64,000 nt of DNA from Asterias amurensis (Eukaryota; Echinodermata; Asteroidea; Forcipulatida; Asteriidae), in contig NC_092665.1 of the NCBI RefSeq assembly GCF_032118995.1, forward strand, positions 6,443,501 through 6,507,500, in the 5' to 3' direction. Every line of letters begins with the position of its first letter. Positions within the stretch are counted from its first letter, which is position 1. Position numbers and translations under genes: made by a program. The notes under the pieces are model-generated. The model saw only the letters and a program-made list of their open reading frames with translations, did not search any database and was not told the DNA's origin. Shown here piece after piece: positions 54,433-59,915 of the stretch.

Positions 54433-57400
54433 CTGTGGAAGAGAAAACGATGTTTAGCAATTTCGAACAAAACTAAAATGTATAGGATTTGAGGCATTGC
54501 ATGGTGAGTTATCAATATAAATTTAGTTTGTGGTAACACCATGTGTGTATCTACTTGCCAGGTAGAGTTTGTTCTTTAGGGAACTGCCTTGCTTCATTCT
54601 ACCACGGAGTAGATGTTTGGGGGTTCGGGAAACTTCTCAGTTCTGAAAAAAACTGTGTACCTTTTAACTATTACCCGGGCGAATGGTATATAGAAAAAAA
54701 AGCTGGGACTACTACTTTAGCTTATATGATTGGCTTAACTATACTACCGTGGAGTCAGTTCTTAAATTGGTCTCAACGTTTCGAATAGCTTGCTCTAGTC
54801 ATCGTCAGGTGACTGAAACTAAAATGATAACATGAAATTGGTGACCCCCTCCCCAGCAATGTTATGTTGCTCTACTTCCTGTTCACCATTATCGTAGTTA
54901 CTGATGTCATCGTTCCATACCCCCAGAGCCATCATTACGAAACCCGAACTGTAACCCCATGTTTTCTAAGGCAATAATAGCTTTCCAGTCTTTGCTGACT
55001 CTAGGTGGTTTACAGAGATTGTGATGATGACAGTTTCTTACCAGTGTCAACATTTGTAAGGTTTCGTCTTTTTCCCGTCGTTGCGTAACTTCTTCTTTCA
55101 CTGAACCCCCCGGGGCCACTCGCGTAATGCATTGTCGTGAACGGCAAATTGTCATCTCCAATCTTGTTATCAACCAGGCCTGCACGCACAGAATAAAAAA
55201 TTGAAAGTGTGCAAAATATTTCAATTACTTTTAAATGAAAGCCTGTGATCGTCAGATAAATACACATTAATATTATAATTTGTCACTAGTTGGCGATGGA
55301 GGGGGTATCTTTTTGAAGCACTGGCCCTGTTAACGTGTCGCCTACCAAAGCATGCATCGAAATCATTTGTTTTCTGCAAAAGAATCTGGTAAAATGCTGG
55401 AAATATTTGAATAGCATTAACGGCTAGACAGTGGACACTATTGGTACCTGTCAAAGACCAGTCTTTTCACTTTGTGTTTCAATGTATGCATACAATAACA
55501 AACCTGTGAAATTTGTTACTCAATTGGTCGTCGCAGTTGCGAGATAACAATGAAAGAAAAAACACCCTTGTCACGCAAAGTTGTGCGCTTTCAGATGCTT
55601 GATTTCGGGACCTCAAAATCTAATTTTGAGGTCTCGAAGTCAAATTCGTGGAAAATAACTTCTTTCTCGAAAACTAAGTTACTTTAGAGGGAGCTGTTTC
55701 TCACACTGTGTTTTACTACCAACAGCTCCACATTGCTTGTTGTTACCAAGTAAGTTTTTATGCTGACAGTTATGTTGAGTAATTGCAAATAGTGCCCACT
55801 GCCTTCAACTTCAACATACATTTACAATCGGAGTCGCCAAGGTAGTACAATCAATACCTTGCCTCGTTGAGTCTGTATAAGGTGTACACCACTCCCTCAA
55901 ACAAACAAATCATCATAATTACCTAGAATAGGATTGCCCTTGCTCGGGTATCCTCCCAATGTCAACACGTGACTATGATCAGCTGTGACGATCACCAATG
56001 TATCCTCCTCATTGATCAATTCCATTGCTTTGGAAACAGCCTCTTCCATTGCAATAGTTTCACGGAGGGAAATATAGGCTTTCCCCATGTGGTTTCCATG
56101 ATCGATTCGACCACCTATCAAAACAAATACAAACACGAATAATTTGCACAGTCAAATTGTCACGTGAAACTCATTTTGTAGACATTATTTTTGTTTTTTA
56201 ATAAGCATTAGTCAAAGACAATGGTACACTTTACTTGGGTGTAAAACGTAAACAACAAACAATAAACGGTTGCTATGGCAATTGGACACCTTTATATACC
56301 GTTATGAAAAAGAATATTACTACGGAACATCACACGGTTGACATGTAAAAGAACCCTTCCAGTCCCGATAGTGTGTAATACTGGCCTTTGGAGTAAATAA
56401 TGGATGGATCTTTTGCTAATTATTTACCTTCAACCATGAGAAAGAACCCCTTTTCATTTCTCTGCAGAATCTTGGTTGCCTTTTCCACCATTTGGGCAAT
56501 AGAAGGCTCACCAGCTTTATCAGTCAGACGCTCGCTTTCAAAGTTCATGTGGCTTGTCTCAAATAAACCTTAAATAATAATTGTGAAACGGTGTACATCA
56601 ATGAGCAATAAGGTTGAATTCTCAGAGGCGGGCACTTGGTACAAGACGGTTTACATTTGTTTACCTCACAGACCGACACTTATGCCTACTACTTCACTTA
56701 AAGGCACTGGACACTATTGGTAATTACTCAAAATAATTGTTAGCATAAAACCTTTCTTGGTAACGAGCAATGGAGAGCTGTTGATAATATAAAACATTGT
56801 GAAAAACGGCTCCCTCTGAAACGTAATTTTCCACGAACTTGATTTCGAGACCTCGGAGTTACAGTTTGAGGTCCCGAAATCAAGCATCTGAAAGCACTTT
56901 CGTGTGACAATGGTGCTTTTTTCTTCTACTATTACCTCGCAACTTGGACGACCAATTATTGAGTTCTAATTTTCACAGGTTTTTTATTTTGTGCATATAC
57001 CAAGTGAGAAAAGACTGGTCTTTGACAATGTTACCAAAGGTGTCCATGTCTTTAAGTTTTTACAGATTAGTCTTTTTTTAACAGTATAAAACATTGTGAG
57101 AAACAGCTCCCTCTGAAGCGACGTAGTTTCCGAGAAAGAAGTAATTTTCCAAGAATTTGATTTCGAGACCTCAGATTTAGAATTTTAGAATAGTCACTCT
57201 ATCTCTGTGGTGACTATAGCTCGATAGTCTAATGACAAAACATCTGCTATAGCAATGCAAAGGTCGTAGGCTCGAATCCCACCCGAGTGATTTGCATAGG
57301 TTCATAGAACTCGGGAAAGTTCTGAACTTACAGTGCTTCAATACACGTAAGTAATGTAAGGGTAAAAAACTACATGTTATAAAAACATCATAATGGTTAC

Positions 57401-59403
57401 CAAGTAGGTGGCTTGTTTTAACTGGGTCGACCTTGTTGAACTCGTCAAGGTTCCATACATATCGGCTTGAAGCGTTATCCTTGCCAGAAAGCCATTCATC
57501 TGCAGGAAAATACCGTTTTCATACAACTTGTCAAGAATAAATAACTGCAATGAAAGTCCCTTTTCTACATAGGCCGCTGTTATAGAGAATTATGCCCCCT
57601 GGAAATATTACCTCGTCGACTAAAACGGTCGGCCAGAATGAAACAAATAATAGGGAGAACAACCCAATTATTGATGATTATATACTTTATGTTATCAAAG
57701 GAACACGTTGCCTTGGATCGGTCGAGTTGGTCTTTGAAAAGCGTTCTGTAACTGTTTGTTATAAAATGCATATGGGTAAGATGTTGTAAAAGTAGAAAAC
57801 AATGATCTACACAAATATGCCTAAAAATTGCGTGGTTTTCAAAAAGTTGACTCCCATAAATGGCCAACCGTGTTAATTCGCAAAGTAAAAAGTAAAAAGA
57901 AATTTCGAGGCAAATTTGTGTGTATCGTTGTATTCTACTTTTAACACATCTTTTTACTAAACCATAACGCATTTCATAGCAAACGGTTACAAACGCTTTT
58001 TATAGACCAACTCGTCCGATCCATGGTAGCGTGTTCCTTTAAGATAGGCAACCCACCTATAAGGTTACGACCATCTTTACGTGATCCTTTTACGAAGGGA
58101 TACTCTGGGTCTGACTCGGAGTTGGGAAGCATCTTTGATCTACCTCCACCTAGAATAACCTGTGTGTTAGTAACAAGACAAAACACCTCACAAATGAAGA
58201 AAGGGATATTTATATATAGGATTTGAGGCATGGCATGGTGAGGTATCAATGTATATTTGGTTTGCGGTAACACCATGTGTGTATCTACTTGCCAGGTAGA
58301 GTTGTTCTTAGGGAACTGTCTTGCTTTATTCTACTGCCGTGGAGTAGATAATCGGAGGTTCGGGAGACTTCTCAGTTCTGAAAAGAACTGTCCTGCTTTT
58401 TAACTATTACCAGGACGGATGGTATAGAAATTAGACTGGACTACTACTTTAGCTTATAGGATCGTAATTACTGTACTGCCGCGGAGTCAGTTCTGAATTG
58501 GTCTCAACGTTTCGACTAGCTTGCTCTAGTCATCGTCAGGAGACTGAAGAGGTAAGAGATATTTATAACCAAGACAAATGTGGTAAGAGGTATGGCGGAC
58601 GCGATAGGAGTGTATTATTTGGTTTGGGTGTATACCAAAGATTAAGGGGCGCTAAATGACGCGCAAGATGCGGAACTGGAGCTTCATCTGTTGGAACGTG
58701 AAATACGCGTTGCCATTTCAGCCAGTGAATGTTTTGTTTCCCATCGATAGGAATGGTCATTGTCTGTACTGATTTGCTCTAATCTATTGTTGTATCGAAA
58801 GAGTAACTTGCCAAAACGGCGTCCAGAGTGGGATTTCACATTTCAGCCCGATAAGTTTGCGTCTTGCGCCTTTGGCGCTCTATAGTCAAAGTTATCCACA
58901 CCTTATAGTGGGTGCGTTCGACCCCGGTCTGCCCCTGGTGCGTTCAAATAGCTTTGACGTCATTCCAGGGGCTCACCCGGGTCAGCCCCCAAAGCCCTGC
59001 TTGTGGAGTGGGTCACTTGGGGTGATCCGAGGTGTATGACGTTACCACGAGGGGACAAGTGTGATCGTTCGATTAGCACTTGTCAGGGGCTCACCCGAGT
59101 GACCTCCGCGGGGTCGACCAATGAAAGCTAATCGAACGCACCCACTGTTTTAGCATTGTGTCCACCAAATCTCAATAAAGCTTCCTTTAGGAATAAATAA
59201 TTAACGTAAATGCAAAATAAATGTTACGTTAGTGTTGTTGGCCAGGCTTATGAGTTGTTGAGCTATATCAGTACAACCAACGGCTGCCTCTTCGTCTGGT
59301 ATATCTGCGTCAGTTTCCCATGATCGCTGAGGTGAGTGAGCGTACAGAGCTGCTGGAGTAGCGTGTGTTACTCGAGTAGTTGTTACAAATCCCGTTGATT
59401 TAC
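54098..59403 (-). CDS. Alkaline phosphatase ALP-3 (exons 4-10)
   Basis: Exons: 59228-59403, 58057-58159, 57401-57499, 56428-56568, 55923-56114, 55042-55179, 54098-54432. All seven join in frame with GT-AG sites in the same phases as ALP-2 and, as far as known, the family. Seen are [75 protein letters not shown] and [18 protein letters not shown] with the paired Cys residues of the tail (CLDYKEHC). The end, [15 protein letters not shown], is a GPI-attachment signal, so the enzyme should sit on the outer cell surface. Exons 1-3, including the nucleophile-serine exon, are not found up to 64000 and presumably lie beyond. Likely functional. Tandem arrangement with ALP-2 shows duplication. Confidence 0.88.
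54481..54820 (-). mobile_element. Penelope-like terminal remnant, copy 1
   Basis: About 340 bases shared with 58217-58550 (TAACACCATGTGTGTATCTA, CTTGCCAGGTAGAG, GGAGTCAGTTCT). On the minus strand the end resembles the hammerhead-bearing terminal repeats of Penelope-like retroelements. Stems are damaged here. In ALP-3 intron 9. Confidence 0.55.
55042..55179 (-). CDS. ALP-3 exon 9
   Basis: [20 protein letters not shown] to RRNLTNVDT. Acceptor CGTGCAG, donor ACTG|GTAAGA. Confidence 0.87.
55430..55810. mobile_element. M1 MITE
   Basis: Full copy from CAGTGGACACTATTGGTACC to ATAGTGCCCACTGCCTT. In ALP-3 intron 8. Confidence 0.82.
55923..56114 (-). CDS. ALP-3 exon 8
   Basis: [26 protein letters not shown] and GNPILG. 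Acceptor TTGATAG, donor CTAG|GTAATT. Confidence 0.9.
56428..56568 (-). CDS. ALP-3 exon 7
   Basis: [28 protein letters not shown] and GFFLMVEG. Acceptor ATTTAAG, donor GAAG|GTAAAT. Confidence 0.9.
56697..57056. mobile_element. M1 MITE, reverse orientation
   Basis: AAAGGCACTGGACACTATTG to GGTGTCCATGTCTTTAA; the interior is the reverse complement of the other copies. In ALP-3 intron 6. Confidence 0.82.
57060..57190. mobile_element. Partial M1 MITE, reverse orientation
   Basis: Only AAAACATTGTGAGAAACAGC to GACCTCAGATTTAGAATTTT remains. Confidence 0.7.
57215..57290 (+). repeat. tRNA-like fragment
   Basis: TATAGCTCGATAGTCTAATG and GGTCGTAGGCTCGAATCCCA resemble A- and B-box arms, but acceptor pairing is poor. 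Probably a SINE head in ALP-3 intron 6. Confidence 0.35.
57401..57499 (-). CDS. ALP-3 exon 6
   Basis: [20 protein letters not shown] to TSHLL. Acceptor CCTGCAG, donor CTTG|GTAACC. Confidence 0.87.
57697..58041. mobile_element. M2 foldback MITE, copy 3
   Basis: Same termini as the other M2 copies with part of the left arm deleted. In ALP-3 intron 5. Confidence 0.8.
58057..58159 (-). CDS. ALP-3 exon 5
   Basis: [20 protein letters not shown] to KDGRNLI. Acceptor ACACAG, donor ATAG|GTGGGT. An M2 foldback starts 16 bases past the donor. Confidence 0.88.
58217..58550 (-). mobile_element. Penelope-like terminal remnant, copy 2
   Basis: Homologous to 54481-54820 and better preserved at its end, where a hammerhead fold is possible (58501-58544). 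In ALP-3 intron 4. Confidence 0.6.
58501..58544 (-). ncRNA. Candidate hammerhead ribozyme
   Basis: On the minus strand, in order: GTCTC (stem I), CTGACGA (conserved core CUGANGA), T, GACTAG-AGCAAG-CTAGTC (6-bp stem II with loop), GAAA (core), CGT, T, then GAGAC (stem I return). Cleavage would follow the GUU triplet. Stem III is only AC/GU, but ACGU is self-complementary, as in minimal hammerheads thought to act as dimers. Such motifs are known in terminal repeats of Penelope-like elements. Activity is untested. Confidence 0.6.
58551..58909. other. ALP-3 intron 4, unassigned part
   Basis: No gene or repeat recognised. Confidence 0.4.
58910..59143. mobile_element. R-type MITE, copy 7
   Basis: GGGTGCGTTCGACCCCGG (left terminus shortened) to GCTAATCGAACGCACCC. 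In ALP-3 intron 4. Confidence 0.78.
59228..59403 (-). CDS. ALP-3 exon 4
   Basis: [20 protein letters not shown] to [12 protein letters not shown]. Acceptor TTTCCAG, donor TAAC|GTAACA. Confidence 0.88.
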
Positions 59404-59527
59404 CTGGAAATGCAGAGAGTTTTTAGTTCAATGTCAATTATTGGTGGAATGAAAGACAACATAATTAATCGACATTTCTTGCTGAAATCTGCTCTTATAA
59501 CCTCGGGTCTAAAGCTCTTTCTTTTTT

Positions 59528-59915
59528 AAGGCAGTGGACACTATTGGTAATTACTCAAAATAATTATTAGCATAAAACCTGACTTTGTAACGAGTAAATG
59601 GGGAGAGGTTGATAATATAAAAAATTGTGAGAAACGGCTCCCTCTGAAGTGCCATAGTTTTCCAGAAAGAAGTAATTTTCCACGAATTTGATTTCGAGAC
59701 CTCAGATTTAGAACTTGAGATCTCGAAATCAACCATCTAAACGCACACAACTTCGTGTGACAAGGGTGTTTTTTCTTTCATTATTTTCTCGCAACTTCGA
59801 CGACCGATTGAGCTCAAATTTTGACAGGTTTGTTATTTTATGCATATGTTGAGATACACAAACTGTGAAGACTAGTCTTTGACAATTACCAATAGTGTCC
59901 GCTGTCTTTAAGCCA
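59528..59915. mobile_element. M1 MITE, reverse orientation
   Basis: AAGGCAGTGGACACTATTGG to ATAGTGTCCGCTGTCTTTAA. Probably in ALP-3 intron 3. Confidence 0.85.

Follow-up and report, generated by a model that had tools for sequence, protein, structure and literature searches.

A probable Penelope-type hammerhead motif in a truncated retroelement insertion of Asterias amurensis, with counterparts in sister families

A minus-strand segment of the window, by which we mean the whole 64,000-nucleotide stretch of Asterias amurensis DNA that was analysed (contig NC_092665.1, positions 6,443,501 to 6,507,500), is very probably a hammerhead motif of the Penelope type. The fuller explanation that we favor, with a probability of roughly 0.6, is that a Penelope-like family, here called X, has its minimal type I hammerhead in this segment, that the segment lies in a truncated insertion, and that some cleavage takes place. 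The kind of motif is known, minimal hammerhead ribozymes of Penelope-like elements having been reported by Cervera and de la Pena in 2014, according to passages in PMC6155905, PMC7229834 and PMC11167929; the families are new.

The initial annotation had read on the minus strand two conserved cores, a 6-bp stem II, a GTCTC/GAGAC stem I, a GTT triplet and a self-complementary ACGT, and the letters bear out each of these (Table 1). Its statement that the cores are correctly placed holds for their presence, but the spacing is not quite that of the textbook, since T58532 intervenes where, in a canonical hammerhead, A9 is adjacent to stem II. An additional core nucleotide is reportedly on record for a viroid hammerhead. 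The window motif has the sequence features of a minimal Penelope-type hammerhead, namely CUGANGA and GAAA cores, paired stems I and II (5 and 6 pairs in copy A), and a short, palindromic stem III with the A15.1-U16.1 pair and an NUH site (ACGU, GUU).

Table 1. Features of the window and of two sister loci; positions are those of the window unless a locus is named.
Feature	Position	Strand	Remarks
Copy A, truncated Penelope-like insertion	58215..58559	(-)	from ~14 nt upstream of predicted transcript start to second 3'-end cluster
Predicted transcript start, A of TTCAGTC	58545	(-)	from TATA box 32 nt upstream in longer copies and 5'-end peak
Minimal type I hammerhead motif	58501..58544	(-)	sequence read, descriptor, between-family comparison
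Stem I	GTCTC 58544-58540 / GAGAC 58505-58501	(-)	5 bp
Core CTGACGA	58539-58533	(-)
Extra T between A9 and stem II	58532	(-)
Stem II	GACTAG 58531-58526 / CTAGTC 58519-58514, AGCAAG between	(-)	perfect 6 bp
Core GAAA	58513-58510	(-)
CGTT	58509-58506	(-)
Palindromic ACGU, stem III	58510-58507	(-)
Predicted cut after GUU	between 58506 and 58505	(-)
Stem-loop AGUUCU[UUUC]AGAACU, counterpart of W/V histone-type stem-loop	58374..58389	(-)
Hairpin CATGGTG...CACCATG	58234..58277	(-)	spans presumed ORF start (ATG 58276) and first 3'-end cluster
Copy B of copy A's insertion	54478..54817	(-)	~340-bp repeat, 86% identical
V-type stem-loops	L009:97-112, L024:2725-2740	(+)

Sister families in the same genome share the layout. 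The compared copies of all five (X, W, V, Y and Z) carry an extra nucleotide after A9; those of X, V, Y and Z keep CTGANGA and GAAA, and W has CAGAAGA. The sister families have ACGU or AGCU together with U, C or A at the cut site. The W motif reads CAGAAGA-C-GATCAG..CTGATC-GAAACGTC and that of V CTGAAGA-C-GAGCAG..CTGTTY-GAAACGTC, and a pattern covering both finds 1,770 places in the genome, its control none. Family Z has frames of up to 921 aa or more with a GIY-YIG domain and, in a tandem on contig 10, bears the motif GCCT-CTGAAGA-A-GGTCC-GGATT-GGATC-GAAA-GCTA-AGGC between its units. Its layout, GCCT-CTGAAGA-A-GGTCC..GGATC-GAAAGCTA-AGGC, follows or separates ORFs in 8 of 12 stretches (L059-L070) that were retrieved for their GIY-YIG matches; the Z pattern was not found in the other four. 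Y, the fifth kind, comes from a single locus (L041) in which no ORF was seen. Model R1, run on 10 of 11 sister stretches, matched W at E 1.8e-9 (L071, L072), V at 2.5e-9, 1.6e-5 and 0.44 (L078, L074 and L075, respectively) and X in L076; it found nothing in L073, L077, L079 or L080, the last of which contains a truncated W motif, and it missed the Z motif too. V-like endonuclease matches form clusters on C6, C7, C8, C13, C14 and C16, with many 428-aa frames, some of them about 6.7 kb apart, and these clusters suggest long tandem arrays holding a Penelope-like element.

Paired changes in the stems, by which the initial annotation had proposed to judge the motif, are found between families and not within X. 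With one copy taken per family, 9 of 13 pairs are altered on both sides among the five; five of these nine changes (I1, I2, I4, II5 and III2) hang on Z alone, which was registered by hand, and that at I5 hangs on Y, in which pairs I3 and I4 fail to form. In alignment A3, whose 24 rows were picked to be distinct and comprise X copies, L041 and both window copies, 91.7% of cells pair, against 20-37% in slid controls, a value that 22 of 500 shuffles reach. Four of its pairs have changes on both sides, a number that none of 500 shuffles attains. Each of the four fits the Y row (L041), so that none lies within family X.

The best fold of the monomer (-17.1 kcal/mol) hides the core, the hammerhead fold lying at -13.1, and the thermodynamic fold pairs the extra T58532 with G12, a base that must be free in a working hammerhead. 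The extra nucleotide is able to form this pair in X, V and W. Genomic 5' ends show little sign of cleavage: among X copies that are intact after the cut, 196 carry GAAACGTT ahead of it and 47 lack the G at -8, and reading of these 47 showed that 4 break exactly at the cut, 4 more share one T and about 31 are mutated motifs. Four exact breaks against 196 intact copies imply that few templates were cut RNA. It is possible, though less likely, that the motif is a conserved hairpin of hammerhead descent that no longer cuts and serves in protein binding or as a leader structure, its extra nucleotide pairing with G12 to give a 7-bp stem. The small number of copies starting at the cut would suit such a hairpin, as would the loss of part of the core in L076, the extra C of W and V, which pairs with G12 as a standard C-G, and the wide spread of W, which has intact ORFs despite its substituted core (one W string recurs many times among the matches listed). 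Nevertheless, copies of X, V, Y and Z retain CTGANGA, GAAA, ACGU/AGCU and an NUH site, which a plain hairpin does not need, and the motif of an anole element does cut when given its protein (PMC11167929). By the account in that source, the anole hammerhead needs the element's protein in order to cut and is dispensable for insertion in vitro, and our best guess is that the hammerhead of family X would behave likewise, cutting only with element protein and being unneeded for insertion.

The context of the motif was read from a flank sample of 50 loci, 20 chosen by their place among the best matches and 30 taken by pattern as they follow one another on contig 1 (L023 and L054 are one place, and L035 and L036 are neighbours within one tandem). 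Upstream of the motif, longer copies carry CCAAT and TATAAATAAG sequences and then an initiator-like TTCAGTC. Two copies (L011 and L058) have about 970 nt upstream of the motif, ending in the broken end of a Penelope-like ORF, and L076 comes directly after an X endonuclease match whose open frame, at 632 aa, exceeds any other seen in X; its promoter is as in other X copies, and its motif lacks 6 nt of the core. The ORF pieces of L058 are 51% identical to the intact 871-aa W ORF of L082 over 265 columns, gaps and X filler counted, and this W ORF has a reverse-transcriptase domain (RVT_1, E 5.4e-10). The earlier description of the segment as a Penelope-like remnant is therefore upheld by the two copies that run into an ORF end, by the one that follows an ORF and by the identity to the W ORF. 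Several X copies have an inverted partial copy beside their 5' end, as has also been described for Penelope elements of a rotifer (PMC3846280). Tandem or inverted partial copies of this kind are those of a Penelope-like pseudo-LTR, and it is in the pseudo-LTR that the motif is located.

The ends of the copies were tabulated in the contig-1 sample, in which 30 loci minus L041 and L051 leave 28. Thirteen of the 28, L035 and L036 both among them, start 6-9 nt before CTGACGA, seven start 0-2 nt before it and eight further upstream; the sample demanded an intact motif, so copies cut inside the motif are invisible in these counts. The A at -6 lies 32 nt after the start of the TATA box in longer copies and was for that reason taken as the transcript start, and the hammerhead would begin at this predicted position. 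The 3' ends of the 28 copies fall at +289..+294 in eight cases, at +324..+327 in four and elsewhere in 16, some of the stray ends being aligner stops at indels. In the other 20 loci, ten fall at +288..+296, three at +327..+328 and seven elsewhere, the reference itself (L024) counting among the seven. About 35 bp separate the two clusters, which correspond to the optional 30-40 bp tail that PMC11167929, in its account of two adjacent reverse-transcription starts, identifies with the interval between them.

That the segment belongs to a non-autonomous retrozyme, a short circular-RNA element with hammerheads, and not to a Penelope-like remnant seems very unlikely. The type I motif and the length, about 345 bp, do fit the 170-400 nt given for animal retrozymes in PMC7229834, and L035 and L036 form a 759-bp tandem pair, but L011 and L058 extend into a Penelope-like ORF, which is at odds with an element that has no ORF of its own; single or inverted partial copies prevail by eye in the loci read; and more 5' ends coincide with the predicted transcript start than with the ribozyme cut. 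The tandem itself (C1:6404746 and C1:6405505) carries hammerheads of two families, X and Z, on opposite strands.

The motif of copy B, the window's second copy (54813-54770, minus strand), contains a single mismatch in each of stems I and II, neither of them compensated. Adjoining copy B is an alkaline-phosphatase exon (PF00245, E 2.6e-8; window 54440-54300, minus strand); the peptide of a second exon gave no match. Copy B lies upstream of the exon on the strand of the latter and probably sits in an intron. Copy A plus its flank is matched at 99-100% over 161 nt at three further places on its contig (C18:7315187, C18:7029675 and C18:4968439), which indicates that the stretch has been duplicated on the chromosome. 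Another dispersed repeat, with a TTGATTTCGAGACCTC...CGAAATCAA palindrome, has several copies in the window (56698-57056, 59525-59912 and elsewhere).

The segment had also been called a dispersed repeat, and this proved correct: in addition to copy B, a search of 491.5 Mb in 23 contigs with CTGAYGAN{8,28}GAAACGTTG gave 355 + 359 = 714 matches, compared with 2 + 4 = 6 for the reversed control. At least two of the first 30 pattern matches (L041 and L051) fall outside family X. A full minimal-hammerhead descriptor, composed once the motif was known, matches the window at one place and none of 400 dinucleotide shuffles totalling 25.6 Mb. The window has 16 occurrences of the bare cores (CTGANGA..GAAA), versus 4.2 expected, mostly in unrelated sequence. 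The covariance-model search that the initial annotation had recommended went against it, as Rfam gave 0 hammerhead matches in the window at gathering and none at E up to 10; the Rfam hammerhead models found nothing in 16 sister loci, and the family threshold of a canonical hammerhead is not reached. Set beside the paired changes seen between families and their absence within X, this makes for a mixed outcome of the checks that the initial annotation had laid out. Rfam's silence would suit a chance match of a repeat's hairpin to hammerhead letters, an explanation we find hardly credible given the absence of the descriptor from the shuffles, the layout shared with other families, including paired changes, and the Penelope-like context known for such motifs.

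We propose that, in the parent element, the motif would supply the first nucleotides of the transcript, following a TATA/initiator promoter and standing in the 5' leader before the ORF, and would recur in the pseudo-LTR downstream of the ORF. Perhaps two motifs of a multi-unit transcript pair through their ACGU palindromes, or perhaps the element's protein holds them; in either case they would cut after GUU, trimming the units. Insertion would draw mostly on uncut RNA, with reverse transcription beginning at the internal hairpin near the ORF start and often reaching the 5' end of the RNA, and could thereby yield short solo copies such as the two in the window.

Known minimal Penelope-like hammerheads, as characterized in passages of PMC6155905, PMC7229834 and PMC11167929, resemble the present motif in their type I layout, their lack of a real stem III and their pseudo-LTR position near the ORF start; the present families are not named in those descriptions. 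The compared copies of the five families differ by the extra nucleotide after A9, which may be general among known hammerheads of this type, and the present motif also differs in beginning at the predicted transcript start. The Poseidon element PAc of Anolis carolinensis likewise has, by the description in PMC11167929, a hammerhead at the junction of pseudo-LTR and ORF, and reverse transcription from a pair of adjoining sites within an AC-rich hairpin near the beginning of the ORF, with the optional tail. Its ORF starts at stem II, however, whereas that of W (and, by its letters, that of X) starts downstream at the hairpin ATG, and W and V differ from PAc in bearing a histone-type stem-loop between hammerhead and ORF start. 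Animal non-LTR retrozymes share a type I hammerhead and a size of a few hundred bases, but in the account of PMC7229834 they carry the canonical motif in short tandem repeats that have no ORF, whereas here the copies derive from an ORF-bearing element.

The stem-loop in W and V resembles in its letters the histone mRNA 3' stem-loop (RF00032), although here it stands in a retroelement 5' leader and not at the 3' end of an mRNA. The W version, GGUUCU[UUUC]AGAACC-ACCCC, scores 35.6 bits against a gathering threshold of 34 bits in two near-identical copies (L071 and L072, 336-382, plus strand) and lies immediately upstream of the ORF's first methionine; V has GGCUCU[UUUC]AGAGCC, and matches at the L009, L024 and L051 places (V and Y) score 20.4-28.2 bits, below gathering. 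The window's version lies 150 nt after the motif's first base and differs from RF00032 in an A-U first pair and other flanks; Rfam did not report it as RF00032 at E values of up to 10. Pairs 1 and 3 are altered on both sides when X, W and V are compared. Of the 39 W/V hammerheads on the first 10.66 Mb of contig 1, 18 are followed on the same strand by the exact stem-loop 45-48 nt after their first base, where 0.015 would be expected. Genome-wide, GGYTCTTTTCAGARCC has 4,651 matches, which may include histone genes, against 0 for the reversed control. The descriptor used found no stem-loop in the Z stretches. Our search of the literature found no published report of a histone-type stem-loop in a Penelope-like leader.

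It is tempting to speculate that in several Penelope-like families the leader is a module that unites the transcript start, the hammerhead, the histone-type stem-loop and the hairpin for reverse transcription. Through its stem-loop such an RNA would attract the host's stem-loop-binding protein, which would link the retroelement to the histone mRNA pathway (S phase, oocyte), and the hammerhead would set free units bearing the stem-loop. We regard this scheme as a whole as doubtful.

These observations add families with between-family paired changes to a class of ribozymes that Rfam misses here. The positions of the 5' ends suggest that many X insertions arose from RNA retaining its 5' end, and on that account the ribozyme looks dispensable for insertion. 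A dispensable ribozyme fits a biochemical study of a Penelope-like element, as far as set out in PMC11167929, and sharpens the question of what purpose the ribozyme serves. The stem-loop beside the hammerhead is a part that a specialist may not expect and, if it binds the host protein, it would represent a new route by which a retroelement enters the histone mRNA pathway of its host.
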